From the NCBI GenBank assembly GCA_002733715.2, contig NVWQ02000053.1:124001-188000 (forward strand): a stretch of DNA of 64,000 bases, given 5' to 3'. This DNA comes from Methylophaga sp. Its GTDB lineage: Bacteria; Pseudomonadota; Gammaproteobacteria; Nitrosococcales; Methylophagaceae. The notes below the pieces were generated by a model. The model was not told the DNA's origin. It saw nothing but the letters and a program-made list of their open reading frames with translations, and did no database searches. Position numbers and translations under genes: made by a program. Positions within the stretch are counted from its first letter, which is position 1. Every line of letters begins with the position of its first letter. Of the stretch, positions 2,307-17,856 are shown piece by piece.

Positions 2307-5300
2307 ATGTTGAAGCTTATCCATAGCAATGATCTGTTACAGTTGGCTGCACGACTTGCAGATCTTCAACAGTCCCAACCGTTACCACCATTAGAAGCTG
2401 AAACGGTGATCGTTCAGAGTAATGAACTTGCCCGCTGGTTATCGTTATTTTTAGCTGGCCAACATGGTATTTCTAGTCATATTGATTTTCCGTATCCATC
2501 AGCCTTTATTTGGGCGTTGTTTCGTCGGCTTCTGCCTGATATTCCACAGCAATCCCCTTTTTCTACCGATGCGATGACATGGAAGCTTTTTGAGCTATTG
2601 CCAGCATGTCGCCAGCAGACAGGTTTTGAATCAATTGATGCTTATCTTGGTCTACAAGATGATGTAATAAAGCGCTATGACTTAGCACACCGTATTGCCG
2701 ATAGTTATGACCAATATTTAATGTATCGACCCGACTGGATCGAAACTTGGGAACAAGGTGAAGCACCGCATTGGCAAGCACGATTGTGGCAGTTATTAAC
2801 CAAAGGTGAAGTCAAACCGCAACATCGTGCCAATCTATTGCTACAGCTAAAACACTATTTGTCCTCTACGGAAACTAAGCCTACTGGCTTGCCGAATCGA
2901 ATTGCTATTTTTGGCTTATCAGCATTGCCACCAGTATATTTAGAACTATTTGAATTAATGTCGCAGCACTGTGATATTCACTTATTCTTTCTATCGCCAA
3001 GTGAAGAATATTGGGGAGACTTACTGAACCCTAAAGCCCAAGCACGAAAGGAATTGGATTCGCCAGAGCAAGAACAATATCTAGCTACAGGTCACCCGTT
3101 ATTAGCTAGTTTAGGCAAGCAAGGGCAAGATTTTTTCGAGCAATTACAAAACTGCACGATGGAAGAAGAATCGCATTTCATTGAGCCGCAGCAAACAAGC
3201 TTATTAGAAAAGCTACAGCATGATATTTACGCCTTAACAGATATTGATTCGCTTAGCCAAAAGCAACAAATTTCTACGGATGATGATTCGATTATGGTGC
3301 ATTCCTGCCATAGTGCTATGCGTGAAATCGAAGTGTTACATGATCAACTATTAGCTCTATTTGAACGCCACCCTGATTTATCACCGACCGATGTAGTGGT
3401 GATGACGTCTAATATTGAAATTTATTCGCCGTGGATAGATGCCGTGTTTGGTAGTAGTGATAAGGCGCATACACTTCCCTATAGCATTGCCGATGGCGGC
3501 ATTAAAAGCCAAAGCCATTTATTAACGGCATTTAATAGCTTATTGGACTTGCCACAATCTCGCTTTGATGTTGAAAGCATTGTTAGCTTATTAGAATGTG
3601 AATCTATCCAAAAGCGTTATTCATTTGATCAAGACCAACTCGAATTAATCAGACGTTGGCTACGTGAGACTCATACGGCATGGGGTTTATCTGCTGATGA
3701 TAAAGTTAGTCTGGGTTTACCAGCAAACGATGCTAATACCTGGCGAGCGGGTTTAGACCGTTTATTATTAGGCTATGCTATACCAGAATCATCGGGACAA
3801 TTGTTTGATGGTCGGTTAGGTTTTGATGGTATCAGCAGTGATCGTGCAGAGACTATGGCGAAACTATGCGGCTTCATCGATGATCTTGATCGTTATAGAC
3901 AAAGGTTAAAAGCACAATTAACCACGATACAGTGGCAGAAACTAGTATTAAAAATGCTCGATACCTTCTTTTTAGCGAACTTAGATAATTCAAAAGAGGA
4001 AGCTGAATTATTATTAATCAGAAAAACGCTTGATACCTTAGTTGAAACCACAAACTTGGCTGAATTTCAGCAAACTATAAGCGTTGATTTAGTTAAAGAA
4101 TGGTGCGAGGGGCATTTAGATACTGAGCAAACTCAAATGCGATTTATGGGCCAAGGCATCACATTTTGTGGCATGGTGCCGATGCGTAGCATTCCTTTTA
4201 AAGTAGTATGTTTGATTGGCATGAACGATGGTAGCTTCCCCCGAAGACAAGTAATGGCTGGCTTTGATTTAATGTCTCGACCGCCTATTAGAAAAGGCGA
4301 TCGATCACAGCGCAATGAAGATCGCTATTTATTTTTAGAATCATTATTGTCAGCACAAGCACATTTTTATATCAGTTATGTCGGTGCCAGTATTGTTGAC
4401 AATTCATTGATTCCACCTTCTGTTTTAATCAGTGATGTGCGAGATGTTTTACGGCTAAGTTTTGTTACTGCTGATAGTGAAGATATTTGGCAACAGATTT
4501 TAACCGAGCATCCTTTGCAAGCCTTTAGCCAACGTTATTTTAATAACAGTTCGCCTAAATTATTTAGCTATGTGGCAGCACATTGTCCACCTAGCAAAGA
4601 ACAAGAGGGTAGTGAAAATTGGTTTAAGCAACTATTACCAGAAGCAGATGAAAGTTGGAAAACGGTTAATCTAGTTCAGTTGCTAGCATTTTATCGACAC
4701 CCAGCACGCTTTTTATTGCGAGAACGACTGGGGCTGTACTTAGAATCTGATGAAGAACAATTAGATCCGCGTGAACCTTTTGATTTAGATGGGCTACAGG
4801 CATGGTCGTTACGTCAACAATTGTTGCAATATAGACTAAGTGAGAATAGCTTATCGGCAGCGTTACCAATGATTCAGGCTACAGGTGAATTACCACAAGG
4901 CACTGTCGGCGAGATGTTTTTTGATAAACAAGCTGAAAAGGTTGAAGTCTTTGCCGATAAATTATTTCCCGATTATCCAGATGAATTTTTAGCACCACTA
5001 GCTTTTTCTTTAGAAATAAATAATTTTGTATTGCAAGGCCAGTTAGACGGCTTAACTGCTAATGGTCGATTTAGCTTTAGAATGGCAAAAGCAAAAGGGG
5101 GTGAGTTGCTCGCAACCTGGTTGCAGCATCTAATTTTAAATTGCATTCAGCCCGATAATATCAACTATGAAAGCCATTGGATAACAGAAGACAAGGACTA
5201 TCACTTTCTGCCAGTTAAAGAGGCTAAAACACTATTAAGTGATTTATTAGATTTATATTGGCAAGGCTTGCAGCAACCCTTGCCGTTGTTCTCAAGCACC

Positions 5301-5519
5301 AGTTATGTCTTTGCCAAAGCTAGTTTAAATGGTGGCCGAGCAAATCCAGAAAAAGCTATGTTTGCAGCATGGCAAGGTAATATGAAGCTTTCAGGAGAGA
5401 AGGAAGACTTATATTACCAACAAGTTTATGATGAAACACCATTAGAGGAGCACTTTAAAACAGTAGCCTTAGCGGTGTATGAACCATTGCAAGCACACCT
5501 TCGTGAGGGTGAGTTATGA
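2307..5519 (+). CDS. recC: RecC, gamma subunit of exodeoxyribonuclease V
   Basis: A 1070-residue RecC. The N terminus (LIHSNDLLQLAARL, then VIVQSNELARWL, then HIDFPYPSAFIWALFRRLLP) matches the family closely, as do DQYLMYRPDWIETWE and the later LIGMNDGSFPRR. RecC holds RecB and RecD together and scans for Chi during double-strand-break repair and degradation of foreign linear DNA. Length is near the E. coli protein (about 1120). The start at 2307 gives the expected N terminus. It is the first gene of the locus and divergent from the lipase-like gene. Unusually, recB does not follow directly: six genes and 6.3 kb separate them. Confidence 0.96.
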   Translation: MLKLIHSNDLLQLAARLADLQQSQPLPPLEAETVIVQSNELARWLSLFLAGQHGISSHIDFPYPSAFIWALFRRLLPDIPQQSPFSTDAMTWKLFELLPACRQQTGFESIDAYLGLQDDVIKRYDLAHRIADSYDQYLMYRPDWIETWEQGEAPHWQARLWQLLTKGEVKPQHRANLLLQLKHYLSSTETKPTGLPNRIAIFGLSALPPVYLELFELMSQHCDIHLFFLSPSEEYWGDLLNPKAQARKELDSPEQEQYLATGHPLLASLGKQGQDFFEQLQNCTMEEESHFIEPQQTSLLEKLQHDIYALTDIDSLSQKQQISTDDDSIMVHSCHSAMREIEVLHDQLLALFERHPDLSPTDVVVMTSNIEIYSPWIDAVFGSSDKAHTLPYSIADGGIKSQSHLLTAFNSLLDLPQSRFDVESIVSLLECESIQKRYSFDQDQLELIRRWLRETHTAWGLSADDKVSLGLPANDANTWRAGLDRLLLGYAIPESSGQLFDGRLGFDGISSDRAETMAKLCGFIDDLDRYRQRLKAQLTTIQWQKLVLKMLDTFFLANLDNSKEEAELLLIRKTLDTLVETTNLAEFQQTISVDLVKEWCEGHLDTEQTQMRFMGQGITFCGMVPMRSIPFKVVCLIGMNDGSFPRRQVMAGFDLMSRPPIRKGDRSQRNEDRYLFLESLLSAQAHFYISYVGASIVDNSLIPPSVLISDVRDVLRLSFVTADSEDIWQQILTEHPLQAFSQRYFNNSSPKLFSYVAAHCPPSKEQEGSENWFKQLLPEADESWKTVNLVQLLAFYRHPARFLLRERLGLYLESDEEQLDPREPFDLDGLQAWSLRQQLLQYRLSENSLSAALPMIQATGELPQGTVGEMFFDKQAEKVEVFADKLFPDYPDEFLAPLAFSLEINNFVLQGQLDGLTANGRFSFRMAKAKGGELLATWLQHLILNCIQPDNINYESHWITEDKDYHFLPVKEAKTLLSDLLDLYWQGLQQPLPLFSSTSYVFAKASLNGGRANPEKAMFAAWQGNMKLSGEKEDLYYQQVYDETPLEEHFKTVALAVYEPLQAHLREGEL

Positions 5520-5520
5520 C

Positions 5521-5549
5521 TTGAGTTTAATTCCTTTTAGATTTAAAAT
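5521..5549 (+). promoter_or_regulatory. Candidate sigma-70 promoter for the block inserted between recC and recB
   Basis: TTGAGT at 5521-5526 and TAAAAT at 5544-5549 are separated by 17 bases, just after the recC stop and about 40 bases before the antitoxin start. Downstream, 5556-5580 holds repeated AACGAAC/CGAACGAA motifs that could be an antitoxin-binding operator. This would let the inserted genes, and recB behind them, be expressed separately from recC. Pattern match only. Confidence 0.42.
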
Positions 5550-5590
5550 GAATTAAAACGAACAAATCGAACGAAACAAGCGGTGATTAT

Positions 5591-5842
5591 ATGAAAGCAC
5601 TTACAGCAAATGAAGCAAAAACCCAATTTGGAAACTTATTACTGAATGCTCAGCGTGAGCCTGTTCAAATTAATAAAAATGGTAAGCCCGTTGCGGTAAT
5701 GATGTCGATGGATGATTATCAGGATATTGAATCATTAAAGCTAAAACTACTGCAAGATCGAGCAGAAAAAGCCAAAGTGGATCTGAATGCGGTTGATGGC
5801 ACGGCATTTTTCCAGGACTTAGTAGCAGGAAAACACGACTAA
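5591..5842 (+). CDS. Phd/YefM-family antitoxin
   Basis: An 83-residue protein starting MKALTANEAKTQFGNLL, then PVQINKNGKPVAVMMSMDDYQDIESL. This is the typical Phd/YefM fold: an N-terminal DNA-binding domain that represses its own operon, and a C-terminal tail that neutralises the toxin. The partner toxin begins 4 bases after its stop. It is the first gene of the block between recC and recB and has a candidate promoter just upstream. By family behaviour it may autoregulate the block through the repeated CGAAC motifs before it; that is inference. Confidence 0.9.
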   Translation: MKALTANEAKTQFGNLLLNAQREPVQINKNGKPVAVMMSMDDYQDIESLKLKLLQDRAEKAKVDLNAVDGTAFFQDLVAGKHD

Positions 5843-5846
5843 GCGT

Positions 5847-6149
5847 ATGGCAACGTTTCGCCTTAGCTCAGATGCTCAAACAGATCTAATTAATATTCGA
5901 CATTACACTTTGAAAAACTGGGGTAGTGAACATTCTAAAAAATATTTATCAGAGTTACAGCAAACAATTGAATTACTATCAGATTCCCCAGAAATGGGTA
6001 AAAAAAGAACTAATGTTTCAATTGATACTTTGAGTTTCCCACATGCCAGCCATGTTATTTACTATGTCTTACAAAATGATTGCTTATTAGTTTTTGCTGT
6101 TTTACATAAAAGCATGGTGCCGAATAATCATTTGGCAAATAGAAAATGA
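5847..6149 (+). CDS. ParE/RelE-superfamily toxin
   Basis: A 100-residue protein with the ParE-like pattern: FRLSSDAQTDLINIRHYT at the start, a central helical pair (KKYLSELQQTIELLSDSPEMGK), then HASHVIYYVLQNDCLLVFAVLHKSM. ParE-type members poison DNA gyrase and RelE-type members cut mRNA; the C-terminal pattern looks more ParE-like, but the target cannot be assigned. It follows the antitoxin after 4 bases. Its stop overlaps the start of the TOPRIM gene by 4 bases (ATGA), so the toxin-antitoxin pair is translationally coupled to the SMC module. That link is unusual and deserves attention. Confidence 0.85.
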   Translation: MATFRLSSDAQTDLINIRHYTLKNWGSEHSKKYLSELQQTIELLSDSPEMGKKRTNVSIDTLSFPHASHVIYYVLQNDCLLVFAVLHKSMVPNNHLANRK

Positions 6150-6943
6150 ATATTCAGCAATACATAAATCAAATCAAAGCGGAAAAACCAATTAACTTTT
6201 CGTGTTTTATTAGCTTATTGCCCAAATCATATAGTGAACAAAAATGTGAAATATTTGCTCTAACATTACAGGCACCACAAAAGTGGTTGGTTAGTTGTTC
6301 AGCAGATGTTTTAGTTGAGCTTGAGTTATTAGCACAGCAGCCGAGTAATAGGTTGCAAGCAACAGAAATGGGTGATTCACATCGCTCGGCAGTTTCATCT
6401 GGTTTTTTACTGGTGTATCACCAAGCATTAACGGATCAGAGACCTGATGTCGTCTATTTGGAACAAGATGCATTTTTACAAGATTTTCAAGTTAAAAAAC
6501 ACTTATTGATTGTTGAAAATGAAGAAAATTTCTTTTTACCAAAATCAATGTTGAAATTGGCAACAGAGTTTACGAATCAGCAACTTGATTTAACGAATAC
6601 TGATGTTGTTTTAGGAAGTGGTGCTCGCGCAACATCTAAATTAGCACGAATATGGTATTCGCAATACAGCCATATATTGTGTGCGTTTGACTATGATACC
6701 GCTGGTTTGAAAATGTATAGAACACTTAAAACTAATTTAGGCAAACACGTTCAATTTCTGCAACCTCAGAGTTATAGTCAATATGAATCTTATTTTAAGA
6801 TGAAACCAAAATCCCAGTCTCAACTTTTGGATTTTATACGTCTAGCAGAACAATTGAGTTTTATAGAGCTGGCAGAAATCGTGCGAGAAAAAAAGAAATT
6901 TATGGAGCAGGAAATGCTATTAATTGGAGAGAAGTATGAGTAG
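6146..6943 (+). CDS. Small TOPRIM-domain protein, JetD/MksG-like
   Basis: A 265-residue protein. From about residue 118 it carries a TOPRIM-like signature: HLLIVENEENFF with the metal-binding glutamate near E124, then VVLGSGARATSKLARIW, then ILCAFDYDTAGLKMY with the acidic D-x-D pair at about 182-184. In JetD (Wadjet) and MksG a TOPRIM nuclease of this kind cuts circular DNA extruded by the SMC motor. This one is short: JetD is usually near 400 residues with N-terminal winged-helix domains, while here only about 115 residues precede the TOPRIM part. ATGA overlap with the toxin upstream; 8-base overlap with the SMC gene downstream. TOPRIM call is motif-based; the JetD-like role is inferred from gene context. 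An OLD- or RNase M5-type TOPRIM is the alternative. Confidence 0.68.
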   Translation: MNIQQYINQIKAEKPINFSCFISLLPKSYSEQKCEIFALTLQAPQKWLVSCSADVLVELELLAQQPSNRLQATEMGDSHRSAVSSGFLLVYHQALTDQRPDVVYLEQDAFLQDFQVKKHLLIVENEENFFLPKSMLKLATEFTNQQLDLTNTDVVLGSGARATSKLARIWYSQYSHILCAFDYDTAGLKMYRTLKTNLGKHVQFLQPQSYSQYESYFKMKPKSQSQLLDFIRLAEQLSFIELAEIVREKKKFMEQEMLLIGEKYE

Positions 6944-9869
6944 CACTACGGATACGATAAAAATAAAACGGCTTGTTTTGGTTGATTCGGCAGGATTTTG
7001 TTTTATCGAAATTCCGATAGATCGGCATGCCATTTTGTTAGGGAAAGGCAATATTGGAAAATCGAGTTTACTTAATTCACTACGATTATTTTTATTGCCA
7101 GAAAACAACTTTAATAAAAGTCGAATTAAATTTGCTTTTAGAGAACCTAAAAAGAATGACTATTACAGTAATAACGACAGTTATAGGCATTATTTCCCTA
7201 GTACACGAAGCTTTTTAATTTTAGAAAGTGAAAATGAGGCAGGAACGCATTGCCAGATCTTATATCGAACTAATAATTTAGGCTATGGCCGTATTTTCAC
7301 GCCTTTTTCTTTCGATAAAATCCGCCATTTTTTTTGGAATGGAACAGGCGGCAATGACGATGGTATTGGTGTTGCAGTAGCAGAATTGTCTATTGCTCAT
7401 ATCAAAGAAAGCTTGAAAAAATTATCTTCTAAAACAGAAATAATCAGTGATGCAAACAAATTGCGCCATACGCTTTATGCCGAACCAAATGAACTGCTTG
7501 ATAGCGATAGTACACGCTATTGTTTAGTACCGTTACATAAGGTAAATGATGATAATGTCGAGTCATTACGGGCATTGATCTTGTTATTATTTGAGATGGA
7601 TTCAAGTGCGGAGTCTATGGCTCAGGCATTGGCGAATATCATTGAATCGGGCAAAAAAACCACAGATGATATTTTAGACTTTAATATTGAGGCTTTTTTA
7701 GCAAAACATGATGATTTAAAAAAACAGCAGAGCCATATTGTTGAATTACGCAATTTACAGCCTGAATTTAACCGCTTATCAAAAGATCATGACAATTACG
7801 TTAAATTGAGTGAAGCCGACAAAAGGTATATCACGCTTACTAAGTCATTATTAATTCAAGAAAAACTATTTAAACAAGTAGCATTAGATAGTCAGAATAA
7901 ATTTAATCAAGAAGAGCAATCGAGGATAAAGCATAAAGGTGAATTACAGCAGATTAGTGATGAATTGATTGGCGAGCGAAGGGCATTAAGAGATAGTAAG
8001 ATGCGAAGAGGAGCCCAAGATGAAATACTCGCGAAGGTAAAAGTTTTGCGGGCTCAGTATCATGATCCTAATTACAGTTTGGATGAAATAAAAGCTGATT
8101 TACAACAAGATGTTGAGCAGATAACGGAAGAATTATCTGCTTTGCAAAATGCAGAAGATAATCTGAAGTTACAAAATACACTTGAAGAAAAAATAAAAAA
8201 AGTTAAGGCAGAAATATTACAAATTGGACAATCCTTAGAAAATAAAGAATTTCAACTGTTTGAACAGCTATCTGAGCAAGCTGGCATTATATTGTCGACG
8301 ATAAATAAAAATCTAATGATGGCCAATCCACATAGAAAAATAACAGAGCAAGAACGGTTGGGAATCGATAACTTTACTGCTTTATTTGAAGATGATGGCG
8401 AAGCAATTAAGTGGTTTGATCAGGCACTGCCTAAACACACTCTTGATGTAGGTGAAGATCTACAAAAGAAACTAGCAAATGCTCAAGCCAATCTTAATGA
8501 TTATGAAAAAACATATAAAAATATCAGTGTTGAAAAGGATGCCATTAGCCAGAAAAAAGAAATAGAAAAGCTTAAAAAGAAACGTGCAGCATCGGAAAAC
8601 GATATAAGCAGTCTTGATAACTATCCTAATCTTACCATTATTAAGCAAGAAGAAAACAATAGCGCTCAATACCAAATAACGATTGATAAGTTGGGTGTTA
8701 AGGAACAAAAATCCCAAATCTTGTTTGAACAATCAAAAACGAAGTTGGTGCAATTAAAAAATAGCCGAGATGAAAAAAATAGAGCGGTAGGTGATTTAAA
8801 TAGACTTAAACAGACATTAAATAGATTGGAAATGCATTACCCTAGATTAAAAGCATTCACTATGGATGAATTTAAGCCTGAGCAGGCCGTGACGGTAAGC
8901 GAAGAAGAGGTTGAACAGCTTGAAAATGACTTACGTGAGTTTGATCGTTTAAGGAATCATATTAAATCAGAATTGAAAGACCTGCATCGCCGTGACTTTA
9001 TCAATGAAGCAGAACTTCTTTCTCAATCACCCAATGATCAGGTAATTGAAAGAGGACTTAATCAATTACATGATACGTTTACCGATTTAGATAATATTGA
9101 AAAAGCGTATAACGATTATTTACATAGCCATAATGAATCGGTTGCCAGTTATGCCAAAGTATTACGTGACAATTATGAAATTATTCACCGTTTTGAAGCA
9201 AGTATTAATCGAGAGCTAAGTTCGGTTACGATTAATGACTTAACGGAGATTAAAGCTACAATTGCAGTGCACCCTAAATTTAGACACTTGGTCGATGAGA
9301 TAAATAAGCTGGATGAATATAGTGATGACATGTTATCTGACCAGTTTTATGAACGACTAAAAGTGTTTGTCGAGACCTTTTTTAAAGAGGGTGATGCTAA
9401 ATTGACCATGGATAAAATCATCACCAATCTAGAATATAAAACTAAAAAACAACAAGATGACACCATGCAAGATAAATCTCAGTCGATGTCTACAACAGTA
9501 TTGATTAATGTAGAGTTGGTTAAGATTTTGCTGAAACGCGTTATCCCAACAGGGATCCGGCTAGAAATGCCACTTATCTTTGATGAGGCGGCAGATATTA
9601 ATATTGACCAGTTTGACTGGATTTTGCCTAATTTAACCCAAGCAGGGTTTAGCCTGTTTGCAGCAGCAACACATAGCGTTAGTACTGAACTAATACATAA
9701 AATAGGCGTTTATTTTTCTATTGATGAAATGACGACCAGTCAACCTTACGATAACAAACGGACATTGGTATATTGGAATGGTGGCGAGGGCTTTGAACCA
9801 TTAGATTCTGATAATTTGATGGATCTGGTTTTGGCTGATCAAACGGATTGGGTTAATCAAGATGAGTAA
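6936..9869 (+). CDS. SMC-like ATPase, JetC/MksB-like
   Basis: About 977 residues from ATG 6936, preferred over TTG 6924 because GGAGAG at 6926-6931 gives a proper ribosome site. The N-terminal Walker A is unusual, GKGNIGKSS at about 36-44, where SMC proteins normally have GPNGSGKS. About 250 to 900 is largely Lys/Glu/Gln-rich coiled coil. The C-terminal head has LEMPLIFDEAADINIDQFDW as Walker B, preceded by KSQSMSTTVLINVELV where an ABC signature should be (clearly degenerate), then FAAATHS. Size and layout fit the short SMC proteins of Wadjet/Mks systems rather than MukB (about 1480) or canonical SMC. It overlaps both neighbours by 8 bases. Expected role: ATP-driven DNA loop extrusion with the next two gene products. 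Confidence 0.8.
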   Translation: MSSTTDTIKIKRLVLVDSAGFCFIEIPIDRHAILLGKGNIGKSSLLNSLRLFLLPENNFNKSRIKFAFREPKKNDYYSNNDSYRHYFPSTRSFLILESENEAGTHCQILYRTNNLGYGRIFTPFSFDKIRHFFWNGTGGNDDGIGVAVAELSIAHIKESLKKLSSKTEIISDANKLRHTLYAEPNELLDSDSTRYCLVPLHKVNDDNVESLRALILLLFEMDSSAESMAQALANIIESGKKTTDDILDFNIEAFLAKHDDLKKQQSHIVELRNLQPEFNRLSKDHDNYVKLSEADKRYITLTKSLLIQEKLFKQVALDSQNKFNQEEQSRIKHKGELQQISDELIGERRALRDSKMRRGAQDEILAKVKVLRAQYHDPNYSLDEIKADLQQDVEQITEELSALQNAEDNLKLQNTLEEKIKKVKAEILQIGQSLENKEFQLFEQLSEQAGIILSTINKNLMMANPHRKITEQERLGIDNFTALFEDDGEAIKWFDQALPKHTLDVGEDLQKKLANAQANLNDYEKTYKNISVEKDAISQKKEIEKLKKKRAASENDISSLDNYPNLTIIKQEENNSAQYQITIDKLGVKEQKSQILFEQSKTKLVQLKNSRDEKNRAVGDLNRLKQTLNRLEMHYPRLKAFTMDEFKPEQAVTVSEEEVEQLENDLREFDRLRNHIKSELKDLHRRDFINEAELLSQSPNDQVIERGLNQLHDTFTDLDNIEKAYNDYLHSHNESVASYAKVLRDNYEIIHRFEASINRELSSVTINDLTEIKATIAVHPKFRHLVDEINKLDEYSDDMLSDQFYERLKVFVETFFKEGDAKLTMDKIITNLEYKTKKQQDDTMQDKSQSMSTTVLINVELVKILLKRVIPTGIRLEMPLIFDEAADINIDQFDWILPNLTQAGFSLFAAATHSVSTELIHKIGVYFSIDEMTTSQPYDNKRTLVYWNGGEGFEPLDSDNLMDLVLADQTDWVNQDE

Positions 9870-11274
9870 GAAGTTTAATACTCACACAACGGTAAAAGTG
9901 TTGTTTGAACATTCTGCGGTGATGTTTGATTGTATTGAACAGATGGATTTGCAAGGTGAGATGTTTATTCGTGAGTCTCAATTTATCAACCGATTAAGAC
10001 GCTATCTAAAAATAACGCCTAAAGAGCAGCAACAGCGACTTAGGGTTGCATTTAAAATTGAAAATTTATTTCAATGTCAGATCATTGCTGATGTGAGTGC
10101 TATTGATGGTGACCGCCATCTGATCTTTCAAGATGAAGTTATTAGCCTATTTCGTCTTTGTAAAGCCTCTCTTCACCAAGAGTTAACCGATTCTCGACTG
10201 CGTAGTCATTTAGAAAGCTTGCGTTCAGTTAAACAGCGCTTGGATGAGTTAATTGTGTTTGATGAGAAGGATCCTAATTACACCGAAATAAAGGATGATT
10301 TGCTTAAGCAGCTTAGTGATATTTATGGCTTATTAAGAAAAAATATTTCATCAATGGAGCGGATGAATCAAGAATTAGAAGATATGACGGCTCAAGCAAG
10401 TCGACAAACAGAGGGTTTTAGTGATTATCGGCAGGCAATGTTTGATCGTGTTAGTCATATTTATGAGCGAAGAATCAAACCCACATTATCATTTTTGAAT
10501 GAGACAATACGGCTTAATGATGGGGCTAATCTATTTTCAATTATTACTGATTGCAAAGAGATGATGGATGGGCGCGGACAGCCTAATACTGCACAGCAAA
10601 TATTCTTATTTTCAATCAGCTTAACAAATATAGCAAAGCCAATTAACCGCTTATCTGATGAAGTTGAGCGGTTCTTGAAAAAAACACGACAAGGGATCTT
10701 AGAATCGAATGCGATGGAAGCGGCATATCAGGCTTTGTTAACGAGTCATCAGCAAACCCAAACTGAAAATATGACTAGAAAATATATGGAAAAAAGCTGG
10801 GCAAAGCAGACACGATTTGTCATTGGTCTAAAGCAACAAAACCGCCCCAAGACTTACCGACTAGGCCGTTCGGCATCTTATATTGATAATTTTCATAATG
10901 AGGTGGCATTGCGGCTTGATGATCTTAGCTTGTTTAAACTGATGTTACCTGAACAAGGCCAAGCAACAAAACAAGGCTCAAGTAAGCAAAGAATGTTGCG
11001 AGCAGAGTCTATATATACATTTCTTTCCAATATGACATTTCGGGAAACCAATGATTTTACCGTTATGATGCACTACCGAATAGAACCTTATTTTGATGAT
11101 TATCTATTTACTGATTTATTAACCGCTATTTTTCATTTGTCTTATCAGTATAAAAAAGAAAAATCAGGGTTTAATTTAGTGACCAGTAATAAAAGAAAAC
11201 AGATCCAATATGGTGATGAGGCCTATATTTATCGAATACAAAGATTAGAGCTGGCGGAGAATAATAATGAGTAA
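9862..11274 (+). CDS. Probable kleisin subunit, JetA/MksF-like
   Basis: A 470-residue, mostly helical soluble protein. The N terminus (about 1-110) is compatible with a winged-helix region. The middle (about 120-200) is a predicted coiled coil with SSMERMNQELEDMTAQAS, followed by a helical bundle (HIYERRIKPTLSFLNETI). I recognise no catalytic motif. Position, size and helical content fit the kleisin that bridges the SMC heads in Jet/Mks complexes. It starts inside the SMC gene (overlap ATGAGTAA) and overlaps the next gene in the same way. The assignment rests mainly on operon logic and composition; a remote-homology search would be decisive. Confidence 0.55.
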   Translation: MSKKFNTHTTVKVLFEHSAVMFDCIEQMDLQGEMFIRESQFINRLRRYLKITPKEQQQRLRVAFKIENLFQCQIIADVSAIDGDRHLIFQDEVISLFRLCKASLHQELTDSRLRSHLESLRSVKQRLDELIVFDEKDPNYTEIKDDLLKQLSDIYGLLRKNISSMERMNQELEDMTAQASRQTEGFSDYRQAMFDRVSHIYERRIKPTLSFLNETIRLNDGANLFSIITDCKEMMDGRGQPNTAQQIFLFSISLTNIAKPINRLSDEVERFLKKTRQGILESNAMEAAYQALLTSHQQTQTENMTRKYMEKSWAKQTRFVIGLKQQNRPKTYRLGRSASYIDNFHNEVALRLDDLSLFKLMLPEQGQATKQGSSKQRMLRAESIYTFLSNMTFRETNDFTVMMHYRIEPYFDDYLFTDLLTAIFHLSYQYKKEKSGFNLVTSNKRKQIQYGDEAYIYRIQRLELAENNNE

Positions 11275-11863
11275 TATCAATGATTTTGATTTGATCAAAA
11301 TAGCAGATAGCACATCAATTTATCGTGAGTTTGCTGCGGGAAAGATTGTTCCTAAACAGCTTTATCATGATTTAAGATCTGAGATGATAGATAATTCAAA
11401 TTACACCTTACTCTTTAAACATCAATCTCATTTTTACCAACTCTATCAATATATTGGTTTTGAGCTGGTTTTGGATGAATCGGGTGAGTTTTTCTATATT
11501 AAAGATGCTCAAGATCTTGATAATAATGAAGCAGATGAAAACGCATTTAAAGTGCAGGTTATTTTAATGTTATTGGGGCGGTATTATGCTCGGTCAGGGC
11601 GTGATCTTGAAAATATAGGAAGCATTGCTCTAGGCATCAATGCTGATGATTTAAAAGCCTTATCTCAGAATGATGAATATACTGACATACTCACCACTGC
11701 AAAGTTATCAGGCGGTTGGGAGAAAGCAATGGATTTTTTAAGTTTCAGAAACTTTGCTCACAAAACAGGAGCAGATCGCTATTTTCTTAATTTAGCCGGC
11801 ATGTCATTTTTGTATAAATTAGTCGATGAATATAAAAATAGTGTGTCAGATAATGCAGAATAA
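11267..11863 (+). CDS. Probable kite subunit, JetB/MksE-like
   Basis: A 198-residue protein, acidic and helical, with FKVQVILMLLGRYYARSGRDLENIGSI in the middle and FLNLAGMSFLYKLVDEY at the end. The length matches the small tandem winged-helix (kite) subunits MksE/JetB, which bind the kleisin. It begins inside the kleisin gene through an ATGAGTAA overlap. Its TAA stop overlaps the recB ATG by one base (TAATG), so recB translation is tied to this gene. Family assignment is inferred from size, gene order and partners rather than from a recognised motif. Confidence 0.5.
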   Translation: MSNINDFDLIKIADSTSIYREFAAGKIVPKQLYHDLRSEMIDNSNYTLLFKHQSHFYQLYQYIGFELVLDESGEFFYIKDAQDLDNNEADENAFKVQVILMLLGRYYARSGRDLENIGSIALGINADDLKALSQNDEYTDILTTAKLSGGWEKAMDFLSFRNFAHKTGADRYFLNLAGMSFLYKLVDEYKNSVSDNAE

Positions 11864-14800
11864 TGTTGTTTGATGTTAATACGGTTGCACTACAAGACCT
11901 TAATATCATTGAGGCCAGTGCCGGCACGGGGAAAACTTATACCCTAGCTGAACTTTATCTACGCTTAATATTAGAAAAAGACTTAACAGTTGATCAGATT
12001 TTGGTGGTGACTTATACCCGTGCAGCAACGGAAGAGTTACGCGAGCGCCTACGCCAAAAACTAGTAGATGCACGGGATGAAAGGTCGAGTGATGATACAG
12101 AAGAACGATTAGAACAAGCGAAACTTAATCTAGCTATTCAAAGCTTTGATGAAGCTGCTATTTTCACTATTCATGGTTTTTGCCAGCGTGTATTGGGCGA
12201 CTATGCTTTTGAAAGTGGCCTACGTTTTGAATTAGACCTTATCGGTGATGATAATGAGTTATTGCAAACTGTAGCAGATGATTTTTGGCGAAAAAAAATT
12301 ACCATTGCAGATAAAGATTTTGTGGCGTATTTATTGTCTAAAAATGAAAGCATTGAAAGCTTATTGCAGTCAGTACGAAGCCTTATTAGCAAGCCTTATT
12401 TAAATCTTGTCGATGTGCCAGAAGTAGATGTTGTAAAATATAGTCAACAGGCACAGGGTCAATTTGAACGTGTTAAGAAGCAATGGTTAGTCCAACGCGA
12501 GGAAGTAATTTCCACACTACAAAATAAAGCATTATTAAATGGCAATAAATATCGCACGGCGAGCGTTGAAAAGTGGCTGTCATTGTTGGCTGAGCTATAT
12601 GAGAAAGAGAGCCTGCCAGCAACTTTGTTTGAAGGTTTTGAGCGATTCACACCAGCAAAACTAGAAGATGCATTGAAAAAAGGTCAGCAATTACCCGAGC
12701 TGGAATTTTGGTTAGAATGTGAGCTATTGTTAGAGCAATTCAATCAATTGCAACACGCTAAAGAATTGCAACTTCAGAGCCTGCGTCTGCAATTATTAAA
12801 CTATTTACGCGAAACAGTGCCGCAACGAAAGCAGCAACAAAGCGTATTGTCATACGATGACTTATTGTTGAATTTAGAAACAGCTCTTGCCGGCTCACGT
12901 GGTGATTGGTTGGTGGAAAAGTTACGAGATCAATATCAAGCCGCCTTGATTGATGAATTTCAAGATACTGATCCTATTCAATATGCTAGTTTTAGCCGAA
13001 TTTTTGCTGATAGTGGTTTGCCTACATTTTTGGTTGGTGATCCCAAGCAAGCGATTTATAGCTTTCGTGGTGCAGATATTTTCACTTATCTAAAGGCGAA
13101 ATTAAAAGCTGACCACGAGCATACCCTCACCACAAACTGGCGTTCTCACCCTGATTTAGTGTCCGCGGTGAATACTGTTTTTAGTCGGAAAACAAAGCCG
13201 TTTATTTATCAGGATATTCCCTTTCATCCGGTTGATGCTGAGCGTCCTAAACAGCAGATATTGCACATTAAAGGGGATAACTCATCTGCTTTAAATATTT
13301 TATGGGCCAAAAGTGACAAGTCACTGACTAAAGGTGAGTTGACGGTTATGGCTGCCAATGCAACGGCCGATGAAATTGCTCAATTATTAACCCTTTCTCA
13401 ACAGGATGAAGCGACATTATTAGATGATAAAACAAAACAATTAGTGGCGGTGACGGGCGGAGATATTGCGGTATTAGTGCGTAATCATCGGCAAGCCTAT
13501 GCTATTCAAACCTGTTTGCAACGACGAGGCATCAATAGCGTTCAACAGGGCCGAGAAAATGTGTTTTTATCAAGCGAAGCCCTAATGTTGCAACGTGTTT
13601 TATTGGCAGTAGCAGAGCCAAATAATGAATCGCGCATTAAAGCGGCTTTAACAACAAGTTTGTGGGGGCTAGATGCAAACGCGTTGTATCAGTTGCAACA
13701 AGATGAAGCGCTGTGGTTGAACCAACTTAATGTGTTTTATGATTTGCATCAGCTATGGCTAAAACATGGCTTTATGCGATTATTTAGGCATTTATTGATT
13801 ACAGCTTCAGTTGAGCAAAGATTATTAGCATTGCCTGATGGCGAACGACACTTAACTAATTTATTGCATTTGGCAGAACTAATCCAAGATTATTGCAGTA
13901 ATCATAGTGAAGGAATTGAAGCTGTTTTACACTGGCTATCTAATCACCGGCAATCAGAAAACAGTGGTGATGAGATGGCTCAATTACGACTTGAAAGTGA
14001 TGAGCAACTAGTCAAAATCATTACCATACATAAAAGCAAAGGTTTGGAATATCCTATCGTTTTTTGTCCGTTTTTATGGGATGCTAATTTACGATCAGCT
14101 AATGATAAGGTGATTACTTTTCATCAGGCTGAACAAGATAATCTTGCTAGTGTCGCATTTTCTGAGCCAGCATTAAGCCAAGCCGCTGAATCAGTGACCT
14201 TAGAAGAACGTGCTGAAGATTTACGCTTATTATATGTTGCTCTAACGCGTGCTAGAGAGCGTTGTGTTATTGTCTGGGCCGGCGTGAAAAATATTGAGCA
14301 ATCGGCGTTATTTAGCCTGTTACATTCACAGTTAGAAAAACCTACCAGCGAGGCAATGTCTATTGAACTTACCGAATTAGTCGAATCAAGTGGAGGCGCT
14401 ATTTCAGTTGAACCTTTACTTGTGGATGAGCTTATTTCTTATCAATCTAATGTTGATAATATTAGTCTATCGGCAAAAAAATTCAATGGTACGATTCAGC
14501 AACCTTGGCGAATTGGTAGCTTTAGTGCATTAACACGTGGCCATGATGCTGAGTTGCCAGATTATGATGCCAATGAAACGTCCTTGCAGGTGCAGGTAGA
14601 ACGCACTAATACATTAGATCGCTTTGGCTTCCCTCGAGGCGCGCAAGCTGGAACCTGCCTACACGCTATTTTTGAACTATGGGACTTCACTAGCCAAGAT
14701 GACGAGGCCCTGCAAGCATTAGTAGGCAAGACCTTATTGCAATATGGTTTTGACGAAAAATGGCTCACTACCGTCTGCCTGTGGGTGGGTGAAGTCGTGG

Positions 14801-15339
14801 CTACGCCAATGGGTGATGCCGCTATTAGGCTTGCAGATCTAAGCCATAACCAGCGGCTAGATGAATTAGAGTTTTATTTCCCGGTAGCTGATTTATCGGT
14901 TAAGCGTTTACAGCAAACATTATTGCCTTTGCTGGCAAAAGGTTCTGCACTAGCCGCTGTAATAAAGCGGTTAAGTTTCTATGATTTTACAGGGTTTATG
15001 AAGGGCTTTATCGATTTAGTATTTGAGCATCAAGGTAAATATTATGTGGTGGATTATAAGTCGAATCACTTAGGGAATAATGAAGCTGATTATCAAAATG
15101 AGTTGTTGATACAAGCGATGATATCGCATGATTATCCTTTGCAATATTTAATTTATAGCCTCGCATTGCATCGTTATTTAAAACTAAGAATTGCTGACTA
15201 TCAGCCAGGGAAACACCTTGGCGGTGTGTATTATTTGTTTATCCGAGGAATGAAAGCAGATTGGGGGCAGTCAGGTATTTATGCTGACAAGCTAGAGCTA
15301 TCAGTATTAGAAGCATTTGATGCCTATCTCGATGATTAA
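11863..15339 (+). CDS. recB: RecB, beta subunit of exodeoxyribonuclease V
   Basis: A 1158-residue RecB, close to the E. coli length (1180). Walker A is EASAGTGKTYTL (about 17-28). Other UvrD-type helicase motifs are TYTRAATEELRERL, AALIDEFQDTDPIQY, LVGDPKQAIYSFRGAD, IITIHKSKGLEYP and LLYVALTRARERC. The C-terminal nuclease domain has GFIDLVFEH and VVDYKSNHLG (about 1048-1070), the metal-binding D/DYK residues. RecB is the 3'-5' helicase and the nuclease of RecBCD. Its start overlaps the stop of the kite-like gene, so its translation depends on the inserted block. A hairpin repeat separates it from recD. Confidence 0.97.
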   Translation: MLFDVNTVALQDLNIIEASAGTGKTYTLAELYLRLILEKDLTVDQILVVTYTRAATEELRERLRQKLVDARDERSSDDTEERLEQAKLNLAIQSFDEAAIFTIHGFCQRVLGDYAFESGLRFELDLIGDDNELLQTVADDFWRKKITIADKDFVAYLLSKNESIESLLQSVRSLISKPYLNLVDVPEVDVVKYSQQAQGQFERVKKQWLVQREEVISTLQNKALLNGNKYRTASVEKWLSLLAELYEKESLPATLFEGFERFTPAKLEDALKKGQQLPELEFWLECELLLEQFNQLQHAKELQLQSLRLQLLNYLRETVPQRKQQQSVLSYDDLLLNLETALAGSRGDWLVEKLRDQYQAALIDEFQDTDPIQYASFSRIFADSGLPTFLVGDPKQAIYSFRGADIFTYLKAKLKADHEHTLTTNWRSHPDLVSAVNTVFSRKTKPFIYQDIPFHPVDAERPKQQILHIKGDNSSALNILWAKSDKSLTKGELTVMAANATADEIAQLLTLSQQDEATLLDDKTKQLVAVTGGDIAVLVRNHRQAYAIQTCLQRRGINSVQQGRENVFLSSEALMLQRVLLAVAEPNNESRIKAALTTSLWGLDANALYQLQQDEALWLNQLNVFYDLHQLWLKHGFMRLFRHLLITASVEQRLLALPDGERHLTNLLHLAELIQDYCSNHSEGIEAVLHWLSNHRQSENSGDEMAQLRLESDEQLVKIITIHKSKGLEYPIVFCPFLWDANLRSANDKVITFHQAEQDNLASVAFSEPALSQAAESVTLEERAEDLRLLYVALTRARERCVIVWAGVKNIEQSALFSLLHSQLEKPTSEAMSIELTELVESSGGAISVEPLLVDELISYQSNVDNISLSAKKFNGTIQQPWRIGSFSALTRGHDAELPDYDANETSLQVQVERTNTLDRFGFPRGAQAGTCLHAIFELWDFTSQDDEALQALVGKTLLQYGFDEKWLTTVCLWVGEVVATPMGDAAIRLADLSHNQRLDELEFYFPVADLSVKRLQQTLLPLLAKGSALAAVIKRLSFYDFTGFMKGFIDLVFEHQGKYYVVDYKSNHLGNNEADYQNELLIQAMISHDYPLQYLIYSLALHRYLKLRIADYQPGKHLGGVYYLFIRGMKADWGQSGIYADKLELSVLEAFDAYLDD

Positions 15340-15360
15340 AAAGAAAGCACACCCTTTTTC

Positions 15361-15438
15361 GTCATTCTCGCGAACGCGGAAATCCAACGATAGTGGCTAT
15401 AGATACAGCCCATGGATCCCCGCGTTCGCGAGAATGAC
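15361..15438. repeat. Nested-hairpin dispersed repeat, copy 1 (recB-recD gap)
   Basis: A perfect 19-base inverted repeat: GTCATTCTCGCGAACGCGG at 15361-15379 and its complement at 15420-15438. The 40-base spacer includes CCAACGATAGTGG and CCCATGGATCC. Relative to copies at 58.6 and 61.8 kb it is in the opposite orientation. In RNA it would form a very stable hairpin between recB and recD and could stabilise or attenuate the transcript. Confidence 0.85.
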
Positions 15439-15492
15439 AAAACTGGAAAAGTGTTGTTATGCATTTATAAACAGTTTTAGTGGGCAACTAGC

Positions 15493-17235
15493 ATGAGTGA
15501 ACTGATTACATCCCTCCGCCAAACTGGTTTTAGCGAATTAGCATTTCAGTTCGCCAAATTTATTAGCCGCATTGATAAAACAGCTGATCCACTCATTAGT
15601 GTGACAGCCGCGTTATTGAGTGAAGCCAACAGCCAAGGTCATGTCTGCTTGAATTTAGAACAAACGATAACGAACGAGAGTTATCGTGCTTTAAACTTGC
15701 CGGATTCTGTAAATGAGTGGCAACAACGATTAAAAGCAAGCCCAGTTGTTGGTGCACCGGGGGAATTCACCCCTATAATATTAACCGAACAAGCCACACT
15801 TTATTTATATCGGCATTGGTTAGATGAACAAACAGTCGCGACATCAATCAAACAGCGATGCCAGTCGATACCACTAAGCAATCAACAACAAATTCAGCAA
15901 GAATTTGAGCAATGGGTGAGTAATGTTGAAGGCCTAGATTGGCAAAAAGTGGCAGTGTTTATGGCATTAACACGGCAGTTTAGCGTGATCTCAGGCGGGC
16001 CTGGAACAGGAAAAACAACCATCGTATTACGACTGTTAACCCTATTGTTAGCCGAAAAGAGTAATATGAAAATTGCGTTAGCCGCCCCAACAGGCAAGGC
16101 CGCTGCAAGATTACAACAGGCGGTTGACGCCCATGCTTCTAATAGTATCGAATCTAAAACCTTACACCGATTATTAGGCATTACTGCTGAGAACCCGCAG
16201 GGTAGATATAATGAGCAACGACCTTTAGCGGTCGATATAGTGATCATTGATGAAGCATCAATGATTGATATTAGCTTAATGGCGGTATTGATGAAGGCAT
16301 TGCCAAGCCACGCAAGAGTTGTATTATTAGGCGATAGTCAACAATTAGCATCGGTCGAGTCTGGTGCCGTGTTGGCTAATTTATGTCAGCAATCGATGCT
16401 ATTTTCAGCAGAGTTCACCACTGACTTGCTGGTTACAACTGGCATTAAGTTAGAGTCTACCGAGACCAAGAACGCTTTAAATAGCAGTGTTGTCACCCTG
16501 CAACATAGTTATCGCTTTTCTCAAAGTAGTAATATCGGTCAATTAGCAACGGCCATCAAAACTGGCGATATTCAGCCTGTATTTGATGTGATTACACAAG
16601 CCGATATGCCAATCTGGCAACAACAATGCGATGCTAACAGCCTACTATCAACGTGCATAACGCTGTATCAATCATTTTTTGAAGCAATTAACAGAAAAGC
16701 TGAGCCATTAGCTTGTCTACAACTATTCGAACAACAGCGTGTTTTGTGTGCCTTAAGACAAGGGCCACAATCCGTTCAGTCGGTGAATGATGTGATTGAA
16801 CGCCATACTCATAAACAAAGTTGGCAAACGCAACAAGGCTTTTATCATGGTAGACCCATTATGGTGACGCACAATGATTATCGCCAACATTTATTTAATG
16901 GTGATACAGGCTTGATATTGCGTGACGAGACCGGCGAGTTAAAAGCTTGTTTTCTATTTGATAATGCACTGCATTGGTTTGACTTAGCCCGCTTGCCCGC
17001 ACATGAAACCGCCTATGCCATTACCATCCATAAAAGCCAAGGCTCAGAGTTTGATAATGTATGTGTATTATTAGCCGAAGAAGAAAGCCCATTGCTAACC
17101 AGAGAACTACTTTATACCGCAATTACTAGAGCAAAAAAACAGGTCATGTTATTGTGTAGCGAAGCTATTTTAACTAAAACTGTTGTCACGCAACATCAAC
17201 GTGAAACCGGGCTGGCAGGTTTGTTAAGATTATAA
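15493..17235 (+). CDS. recD: RecD, alpha subunit of exodeoxyribonuclease V
   Basis: A 580-residue RecD (E. coli 608). It has the RecD N-terminal domain, then Walker A in SGGPGTGKTTIVLRLL (near residue 170), AAPTGKAAARLQQAV, VIIDEASMIDISLM, LLGDSQQLASVESGAV, and the C-terminal helicase motifs TIHKSQGSEFDNV and LYTAITRAKKQV. RecD is the fast 5'-3' helicase of RecBCD and regulates nuclease activity before Chi. It lies 153 bases after recB with a hairpin repeat in between. The start MSELITSLRQTGF is plausible. A second toxin-antitoxin pair follows it. Confidence 0.95.
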   Translation: MSELITSLRQTGFSELAFQFAKFISRIDKTADPLISVTAALLSEANSQGHVCLNLEQTITNESYRALNLPDSVNEWQQRLKASPVVGAPGEFTPIILTEQATLYLYRHWLDEQTVATSIKQRCQSIPLSNQQQIQQEFEQWVSNVEGLDWQKVAVFMALTRQFSVISGGPGTGKTTIVLRLLTLLLAEKSNMKIALAAPTGKAAARLQQAVDAHASNSIESKTLHRLLGITAENPQGRYNEQRPLAVDIVIIDEASMIDISLMAVLMKALPSHARVVLLGDSQQLASVESGAVLANLCQQSMLFSAEFTTDLLVTTGIKLESTETKNALNSSVVTLQHSYRFSQSSNIGQLATAIKTGDIQPVFDVITQADMPIWQQQCDANSLLSTCITLYQSFFEAINRKAEPLACLQLFEQQRVLCALRQGPQSVQSVNDVIERHTHKQSWQTQQGFYHGRPIMVTHNDYRQHLFNGDTGLILRDETGELKACFLFDNALHWFDLARLPAHETAYAITIHKSQGSEFDNVCVLLAEEESPLLTRELLYTAITRAKKQVMLLCSEAILTKTVVTQHQRETGLAGLLRL

Positions 17236-17378: not shown

Positions 17379-17609
17379 ATGTCTGTTATTACAGCAAGAA
17401 TAGATGAACAATTAGAACGTAGGCTTGAAAAGTTAGCAAAAGTAGCGGATAGAAAAAAAAGCTATTTTGTACGTAAAGCGCTAGAAATGTCGATTGAAGA
17501 TCTTGAAGATATTTATGAGGCTGAGGCAGTTGTTTTAAAAATACGTGATGGTTCAGAGAAAACGTACAGCTTAGATGAAATAAGGCAGGAGCTAGATCTT
17601 GCAGATTAG
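17379..17609 (+). CDS. Ribbon-helix-helix antitoxin (RelB/CopG-like)
   Basis: A 76-residue protein. MSVITARIDEQLERRLEKLA with KSYFVRKALEMSIEDLEDIY is a ribbon-helix-helix DNA-binding domain. The C-terminal half (SEKTYSLDEIRQELDLAD) is the expected toxin-binding tail. AGGAG at 17368-17372 lies just before the start. It overlaps the toxin start by 11 bases. This is the second toxin-antitoxin pair beside the recBCD genes; antitoxins of this class normally repress their own promoter. Confidence 0.9.
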   Translation: MSVITARIDEQLERRLEKLAKVADRKKSYFVRKALEMSIEDLEDIYEAEAVVLKIRDGSEKTYSLDEIRQELDLAD

Positions 17610-17856
17610 GTTTTCTTCGCACTCGTTAAAACAATTAAAAAGATTAGATAAACATATTGCAAAGAAAATCATTGACTTTATCGAAGATAAAATTGCACAG
17701 CTAGACGACCCTAGGCAGATCGGTAAGCCTTTGCAGGGGCAACTTGTAAATTTATGGCGTTATCGCTTGGGCGATTACCGTATGATAGTTGAAATACAAG
17801 ATGATGAAATGATCATTCAAGTGATTAAAATTGGACATCGCAAAGATATTTATTGA
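17599..17856 (+). CDS. RelE-family toxin (TTG start)
   Basis: An 85-residue RelE-like protein: MQIRFSSHSLKQLKRLDKHIAKKI, then GKPLQGQLVNLWRYRLGDYRMIVEIQDDEMIIQVIKIGHRKDIY. The LWRYRLGDYR and IGHRKDIY segments are hallmarks of RelE-type ribosome-dependent mRNA interferases. The start is a TTG inside the last codons of the antitoxin gene (AGATCTTGCAGAT), giving an 11-base overlap; a weak start keeps toxin below antitoxin. All expected parts are present, so it is likely functional. Confidence 0.9.
   Translation: MQIRFSSHSLKQLKRLDKHIAKKIIDFIEDKIAQLDDPRQIGKPLQGQLVNLWRYRLGDYRMIVEIQDDEMIIQVIKIGHRKDIY

Follow-up and report, generated by a model that had tools for sequence, protein, structure and literature searches.

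A candidate SMC-TOPRIM defence module related to Wadjet and MksBEFG between recC and recB in Methylophaga

Complexes that join a structural maintenance of chromosomes (SMC) motor to a nuclease sense DNA shape in immunity, and work on them has so far dealt mostly with type I, according to the available part of one paper (PMC10586767). The same part describes the Wadjet system, JetABCD, as a complex in which, on the current view, loop extrusion by the SMC core proceeds until the two motors run into each other on a small circle, whereupon JetD cuts (PMC10586767). For MksBEFG, the accessible portion of a second paper gives the gene order mksFEBG, reports that alanine mutants of MksG at E236 and D279 are drastically impaired in nuclease activity, and puts forward E349/E351 as catalytic residues (PMC10123090). 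Lamassu consists of LmuA, LmuB and LmuC, with no kleisin or kite mentioned in the available part of the first paper (PMC10586767), and MukBEF and MksBEF are given without a nuclease subunit in the accessible parts of both (PMC10586767, PMC10123090). Here, we describe a set of genes for a TOPRIM nuclease-like protein, an SMC ATPase, a kleisin-like protein and a kite protein that lies between recC and recB in a 64,000-nucleotide stretch of Methylophaga sp. (contig NVWQ02000053.1, positions 124,001 to 188,000), hereafter called the window; the 2.83-Mb genome to which it belongs is G000.

With a probability of roughly two in three, we read these genes as a defence module, predicted from sequence and structural models to be a new sister type of Wadjet/MksBEFG, which would have been inserted together with a Phd-ParE toxin-antitoxin (TA) pair at the recC|recB boundary and would be expressed as part of the recBCD operon. 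If it is such a sister type, its minimal TOPRIM protein and altered gene order would reveal what in JetABCD is required to keep the nuclease off, and a slot with alternative cargo, with empty sites as natural controls, would make the suspected tie between foreign-DNA breaks and RecBCD directly testable.

Six genes between recC and recB and their products

The window carries an intact recC gene (2307..5519; NCBIfam TIGR01450, 988 bits against a cut-off of 582.9), followed on the same (+) strand by the six genes that the sequence-only reading had recognized: phd (5591..5842), parE (5847..6149), the TOPRIM gene (6146..6943), the SMC gene (6936..9869), the kleisin-like gene (9862..11274) and the kite gene (11267..11863). 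Then come recB (11863..15339; TIGR00609, 962 bits against 696.05) and recD (15493..17235; TIGR01447, 541 bits against 310.15), also on the + strand. Four nucleotides separate phd from parE, and from parE through recB neighbouring genes overlap by 1 to 8 nucleotides, the start codon of recB (ATG) sharing 1 nucleotide with the kite stop codon; the overlaps, including that at the recB start, had been noticed before and were confirmed here. These figures count the SMC gene from ATG 6936, which is favoured over the alternative start TTG 6924 (open reading frame [ORF] 6924-9869) because in L057, its nearest relative, no start codon precedes this point. Since the genes overlap, co-expression of the insert with recB is likely. 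The G+C content of the inserted genes is 32 to 39%, compared with 40 to 42% for recBCD, and none of the six encodes an integrase or transposase. Compared with relatives whose junction is empty, the recC stop codon overlaps an apparent remnant of a former recB start, ATGACT.

The TOPRIM protein (265 amino acids) resembles the catalytic half of JetD/MksG and matches Pfam JetD_C at 23.4 bits (cut-off 22); among the 17 family members, JetD_C matches 11 at an E value of 0.01 or below. The residues that had been pointed out near positions 124 and 182 are indeed present, and E124, D182 and D184 are conserved in 17, 17 and 16 members, respectively, one having E in place of the last. An EQE motif at 254-256 is invariant, and by residue alignment the active site is intact. 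When compared with type I JetD by hhalign, the protein scored 95.5%, the match spanning JetD residues 248-382 only, with the EN, DxD and EQE motifs aligned to JetD residues. Residues 1-112 scored 0.1% against the N-terminal half of JetD, and the Pfam scans of the window and family proteins gave no match to DUF3322, the N-terminal CAP domain of JetD, for the TOPRIM protein. We infer that E236, D279 and E349/E351 of MksG correspond to E124, to one of D182/D184 and to the EQE motif, respectively.

The kite protein (198 amino acids) belongs to the MksE family, the window copy scoring 59.6 bits against a Pfam cut-off of 27 and all 14 of 14 family members matching; hhalign gave 80.5% to JetB1 and 50.6% to E. 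coli MukE.

The SMC protein (977 amino acids) carries the Walker A and Walker B motifs that the sequence-only reading had reported (GKGNIGKS and LIFDEA) as well as the signature motif, while nothing in Pfam scored over its cut-off (AAA_29, E 0.012). Its AlphaFold model (pLDDT 78.8, pTM 0.49) has strand-rich ends with long helices between them. Foldseek placed MukB first (E 5.7e-19), followed by Wadjet type II JetC (2.4e-14) and Rad50 (1.0e-13); further JetC entries ranged from 2.3e-13 to as weak as 9.7e-7, and the best Lamassu entry stood at 3.3e-5. The structural comparison with VIA gave Z scores of 18.6-20.2 for MukB, up to 16.9 for JetC, 15.7 for Rad50 and 14.9 for cohesin; Lamassu chains do not figure in the 50 VIA rows, an absence to which we attach no weight. 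By hhalign, the protein scored 98.9% against JetC1 over the C-terminal head (740-922) and 65.7% against E. coli MukB. On the predicted fold and these alignments, the protein is an SMC of the MukB/JetC kind. It is not a clear member by the PADLOC models for JetC1-3, which match 1 to 3 of the 17 family SMCs each; the LmuB models match 3 to 4 each. In a tree of the head region of 30 SMCs, 15 family rows formed one clade (100/100) that excluded JetC1, JetC2 and MukB and had a branch length of 2.34 changes per site, and within it the three rows located at recBCD formed one nested clade (100/100); the tool issued a long-branch warning for this tree, from which two truncated rows were left out.

The kleisin-like protein (470 amino acids) matched no Pfam, NCBIfam or PADLOC family below E 0.009. 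In its model (pLDDT 71, pTM 0.40), a helical central part is flanked by ends of mixed helices and strands resembling winged helices, and its six best Foldseek rows were MukBEF or MukEF entries at E values of 0.005 to 0.06. In VIA, ranks 1-8 were MukF, MukEF or MukBEF entries (Z 12.9-13.6, the chains being assigned as MukF from their length), and Wadjet type II chains scored 9.1 and 8.9. Seven of the eight top Muk alignments reach back to within 10 residues of the N terminus of the model, and those of unrelated helical proteins (Z 12.8 or less) begin at about residue 102 or beyond. The protein is thus probably a MukF-like kleisin as judged from its model, and this is the weakest of the four subunit assignments. 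The two model-based assignments and the sequence matches of the TOPRIM and kite proteins agree with a set of SMC, probable kleisin, TOPRIM and kite proteins; the contrary outcome, which would have spoken against the sequence-only reading, did not appear. PADLOC was weak or silent for all four window proteins, and sequence searches of the PDB, whether by single protein or by profile, returned no useful match.

Relation to Wadjet, MukBEF and Lamassu

To obtain reference systems, we searched 124 class genomes with a JetC1 model, which gave 17 matches spread over 16 genomes, and a JetC2 model, which matched in 1 genome; neither matched in G000 at 1e-20. Thirteen of the JetC1 matches, together with the JetC2 locus (L120-L127 among them), served as Wadjet references, with non-SMC subunits assigned by position and size. 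Genomes were searched for JetC1 and JetC2, and JetC3 (type III) was compared through the PADLOC models on the family proteins. When the four family alignments were set against Wadjet by hhalign, only the expected pairs matched (SMC with JetC1, TOPRIM with JetD1, kite with JetB1) and the remaining pairs scored 11% or less, type II being represented by a single sequence per subunit.

Like type I Wadjet (JetABCD) and MksBEFG, the module combines an SMC, a kite, a probable kleisin and a TOPRIM nuclease-like protein; its TOPRIM catalytic residues and terminal EQE align with JetD, and the Pfam family of its kite, MksE, is also found beside type I JetC. However, the gene order in Wadjet I and II is kleisin-kite-SMC-nuclease, whereas here it is TOPRIM-SMC-kleisin-kite. 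The type I JetD ORFs compared have 394 to 430 codons' worth of amino acids against 265 for the TOPRIM protein, whose first 112 residues are unmatched; the type I SMCs have 1115 to 1195 amino acids against 977 and stand outside the clade of the module SMCs; and the module kleisin is unmatched by sequence in type I. Type II Wadjet is also a four-gene system, and its JetABC structures are among the fold matches of the module SMC and kleisin, but the one locus of this type found here (L124) encodes a 1377-amino-acid SMC and a 409-amino-acid protein in the kite position, has the order kleisin-kite-SMC-nuclease, and scored no more than 10.9% against the module in a single-sequence comparison. We therefore rejected assignment to a known type I or II Wadjet on account of the other gene order, the separate SMC clade and the unmatched JetC models in G000, and the sequences and models of the module instead point to a new sister type of Wadjet/MksBEFG. 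Of the earlier proposal that the same machinery as Wadjet is at work, the relationship to that four-protein set held up, on Pfam, hhalign and fold matches with the kleisin as the weakest link, whereas identity with a known type did not, given the gene order, the SMC clade and a TOPRIM protein that lacks a recognizable N-terminal half of JetD.

MukBEF and MksBEF are the nearest solved folds for the module SMC and kleisin, and the MksE kite is common to both, but the module has a TOPRIM protein with an intact site (its gene is present in every family locus read) and occurs as an occasional insert. Lamassu likewise pairs an SMC-like ATPase with an effector, and its PADLOC LmuB matches to the family are weak; the module differs from it by an MksE kite, a kleisin-like gene and a JetD-like TOPRIM effector. 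Type I-B retrons, consisting of a reverse transcriptase (RT) and an ATPase-TOPRIM protein, share the recC-recB location with the module in one genome (G004, see below) but consist of different genes. Among the best matches in mostly open-access literature, we found no comparable SMC-TOPRIM/recBCD system or recC-recB defence system, nor, in literature of the same kind, a joint treatment of a kleisin with recC and an operon; the single paper there that mentions MksB, RecBCD and an operon is by its title a structural study of MukBEF.

The recC|recB junction and copies elsewhere

A search with the single SMC protein matched 4 of 59 genomes, including G000, and a 17-row SMC profile found the same four among the 29 genomes of the genus (G000, G023, G028 and G008). 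All four genus copies sit at recC-recB, where recC is followed by phd-parE-TOPRIM-SMC; kleisin, kite and recB come after the SMC gene in G000, G023 and G028, while the contig of G008 breaks off within the SMC gene, leaving its recB out of view. The carriers are 65 to 79% identical to the window TOPRIM and SMC proteins. We thus rejected a one-off rearrangement or assembly artefact, the same arrangement being present in G023, G028 and G008, and on this point the sequence-only reading stood up to the survey of recC-recB junctions.

A recC match was found in 27 of the 29 genus genomes, and the junction was readable in 25 (in G008 on the recC side only). In 17 of these 25 the junction is empty, recC running into recB, mostly with overlapping stop and start codons. 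The eight occupied junctions comprise the four with phd-parE and the SMC set; one with phd-parE alone (G025); one in which phd-parE is followed by a 446-amino-acid TPR protein without a PADLOC match (G017, L038); one with a 257-amino-acid PDC-S64 candidate (G006, L049; PADLOC, 90 bits); and one with a type I-B retron (G004, L050; RT_I-B 412 bits, ATPase-Toprim_I-B 593 bits), for whose RNA part Rfam gave no match at L050. Because unrelated defence genes occupy the same position in related genomes, the recC|recB boundary in this genus looks like a landing slot. When 22 recC rows were placed in a tree, the SMC inserts fell into two clades, each with empty relatives, the retron genome G004 was sister to the empty G021, and the genome with the TA pair alone likewise had an empty sister.

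Among 66 adjacent recC-recB pairs from outside the genus, 4 had more than 700 nucleotides between the matches. These 66 were paired by hand among the recB matches listed, 62 with measurable gaps and 4 judged from matches that start or end early; the count excludes genomes in which the two genes lie on different contigs, follow another order or are widely spaced (26 kb in G311; 20 kb, on one strand, in G241), and also the broken pair of G213. Two of the four long gaps hold ordinary-looking genes and two hold no identifiable ORF, and five ORFs scanned from the four gaps had no PADLOC match at 1e-5. With only 4 of 66 non-genus pairs showing long gaps, we rejected occupancy as a general gammaproteobacterial feature. 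Occupied junctions were more frequent within the genus (8/25 versus 4/66; Fisher P = 0.0028), as was SMC, retron or PDC-S64 cargo (6/25 versus 0/66; P = 0.00027); both tests were post hoc and treat related genomes as independent, and the four SMC inserts may be one event.

In G021, two genes with strong matches to PDC-M30A (313 bits) and PDC-M30B (383 bits) lie directly after recD (L051), and therefore the recC|recB boundary may not be the sole point of the recBCD operon at which defence genes settle.

The TA pair that opens the insert comprises a type II antitoxin (phd; Pfam PF02604 PhdYeFM, 53.8 bits) and a type II toxin (parE; PF05016, 59.8 bits). Upstream of phd, a box, AAACGAACAAATCGAACGA (5556..5574, + strand), is identical in five of the six phd-bearing loci and has one change in the sixth, and is a probable TA operator. 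A promoter-like site, TTGAGT-17-TAAAAT (5521..5549, + strand), precedes it; its scan score of 9/12 is weak alone, and the scan shows no excess of promoter-like matches over shuffles, while the region is alignable across all six phd-bearing loci.

Beyond the genus, a six-row SMC profile matched 4 of 369 class genomes (E of 1e-15 or below) and 7 of 398 phylum genomes (1e-10), G000 being among both, in searches that score only the first few candidates per genome. Nine further genomes from these class and phylum searches yielded 11 module loci. Three SMC queries against 72,556 plasmid records found two plasmid copies, on a 599-kb plasmid of Photobacterium damselae and a 320-kb plasmid of Methylophaga thalassica; a kleisin query among plasmid records found the Photobacterium damselae plasmid only. 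The order TOPRIM-SMC-kleisin-kite is complete in 10 of the 11 non-recBCD genome loci, although in one of these ten the kite gene is truncated where the contig stops; the remaining locus ends in the SMC gene. Both plasmids keep the same order, with two small genes between SMC and kleisin on the Photobacterium plasmid. None of the 11 genome loci has a recBCD gene in the 7.6 to 19 kb fetched, and neither plasmid has one annotated within 9 kb; in two genomes (G257 and G272), recC lies on a different contig from the module.

Clear defence genes occur near 5 of these 13 copies: Gabija GajA and GajB (L085), a type III restriction-modification system with HEC-06/Orf5 (L086), a CBASS-type cyclase (L083), a PDC-M65A gene (84 bits; L087), and Cas3f with an annotated Csy1 of CRISPR type I-F (L063). 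This count covers the part of the flanking genes that was scanned with PADLOC, at loci other than L069, L071 and L084, and it leaves out weak PADLOC rows at L070 (a TIR effector, 34 bits, and Cas3e, 22 bits). A divergent WYL regulator lies beside the TOPRIM gene in 4 of the 13 copies (L064, L071, L083 and L087).

A phage origin of the module was considered and rejected, since no phage record matched the SMC or the kleisin and a scan of viral contigs with the kleisin only gave no relative.

As to other chromosomal SMC complexes, SMC_prok_B gave no match over its cut-off in G000 and nine weak ones, and a search with E. coli MukB found none in the 29 genus genomes, a search that had no positive control. 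The condensin of the genus may be of an unrecognized kind, or there may be none.

Proposed mechanism and competing explanations

The JetABCD outline is our best guess for the mode of action, because the catalytic parts are present here. The SMC-kleisin-kite motor would extrude DNA loops; on small circular or otherwise stalled foreign DNA, a TOPRIM dimer would then make a double-strand break; and the resulting ends would be ordinary RecBCD substrates and be degraded. The operon position would mainly offer the insert a slot that is permissive and expressed, the TA pair may help to retain it, and sharing the operon could conceivably tune RecB levels or pass DNA on directly. As the simpler reading, we prefer defence cargo that was inserted and is co-expressed to a machine dedicated to RecBCD, because the slot is used by unrelated genes and because hand-off needs no shared operon, given that RecBCD would process cut ends in any cell that has it.

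Several results weigh against this account. No family member has a known activity. The kleisin-like protein has no Foldseek row below E 0.001, an unrelated helical protein reaches a VIA Z score of 12.8, within the tie range of the Muk rows, and the sequence is unmatched, with hhalign values of 3.3% to JetA1 and 1.0% to E. coli MukF. Six of the 17 TOPRIM proteins do not reach E 0.01 for JetD_C, and for the family SMCs the best PADLOC E value belongs to LmuB (4.4e-7) ahead of JetC (5.3e-6). Neighbours scanned at L080, L081 and L082 had no PADLOC match, and those at L064 matched WYL models only. Lastly, the two insert-bearing recC clades fit one old gain followed by losses, or transfer between lineages.

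The sequence-only reading had suggested that the machinery is wired to RecBCD, and taken in its strict form this would make the SMC-TOPRIM complex and RecBCD one pathway, by contact or direct hand-off, with the operon kept for that. Genes that overlap up to the recB start in the window, an arrangement kept in four genomes at 65 to 79% identity in TOPRIM and SMC, the location of all four copies among 29 genus genomes at this junction, and three unrelated defence cargos in one slot, which hint that the place itself may be useful, all argue for such a partnership. However, an obligate partner would always be encoded with recBCD, and this is not the case: 13 of 13 copies outside the junction are without a recBCD gene in the stretch read, in G257 and G272 recC is on another contig, 17 of 25 genus junctions are empty, and Phd-ParE alone also sits there. 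We consider a dedicated partnership unlikely, so that of the suggested wiring a link to RecBCD is retained as possible while a special one did not emerge. A related proposal is that the module, like the other cargo of the slot, is a guard that reacts when a phage blocks RecBCD, the operon linking guard and guarded. According to the available part of a review (PMC12904381), loss or inhibition of RecBCD is a signal to which OLD nucleases, Gabija and retron Eco6 (Ec48) respond, and in G004 the slot is taken by a retron whose partner is an ATPase-TOPRIM protein; but that retron scores best as type I-B and is not shown to be of the kind in the review, no feature of the four genes points to RecBCD sensing, and the copies elsewhere adjoin no recBCD gene, leaving a guard function with long odds. 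Unlikely, too, is a scheme in which recC|recB is a selected defence slot that puts SMC-TOPRIM modules, retrons and other systems under co-expression with RecBCD since their break products or triggers pass through RecBCD, and in which the module would be a new Wadjet type whose CAP-less TOPRIM protein has to be both restrained and activated by a different route, for which RecBCD or the kite-kleisin arm might be responsible.

Two further explanations set RecBCD aside. A housekeeping condensin of the MukBEF/MksBEF kind that organizes the chromosome, with TOPRIM as an accessory, would fit the folds nearest to MukB and MukF, the lack of SMC_prok_B over its cut-off in G000 and the failure of the MukB search, run without a positive control, to match any of the 29 genus genomes. 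Presence in only 4 of those 29, beside a TA pair, together with an intact nuclease active site and defence genes near copies elsewhere, makes such a role very improbable in our view. A Lamassu-like Rad50/SMC defence system in place of a Wadjet-like one is suggested by the LmuB models, which match 3 to 4 of 17 SMCs each (best E 4.4e-7), but we regard it as scarcely credible, given a kite and a probable kleisin, a JetD-like effector, and Foldseek E values for MukB (5.7e-19) and JetC (2.4e-14) that rank above the best for Lamassu (3.3e-5). The co-expressed defence cargo of a new Wadjet/MksBEFG sister type therefore remains the reading we prefer.

Several minor observations concern recBCD and its surroundings. 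In the gap between recB and recD (window 15340-15492) lies an inverted repeat (CATTCTCGCGAACGCGG and its complement) that resembles a small dispersed palindromic element. At L049 in G006, in the stretch at about 9.6-12.4 kb as counted in recC orientation, the C-terminal part of recD (about 120 residues, 73% identical to RecD of the window) recurs 2.5 kb beyond recD itself, with a putative transposase-like gene between, and may be a mobile-element duplication. In the 1.5-Mb genome G018 (L056), the recC and recB matches are fragmented, with stops in recC, which may reflect loss of RecBCD or sequence errors. A small putative RelE-like protein is encoded 3' of recD in the window (17599-17856), and a relative (74%) is found 3' of recD in G013 as well (L041), there after a 78-amino-acid ORF. 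Farther downstream (20455-20976), the window encodes a 173-amino-acid, putatively secreted protein with tandem repeats of the form WDKTKEVSGD.WNATKEGS.

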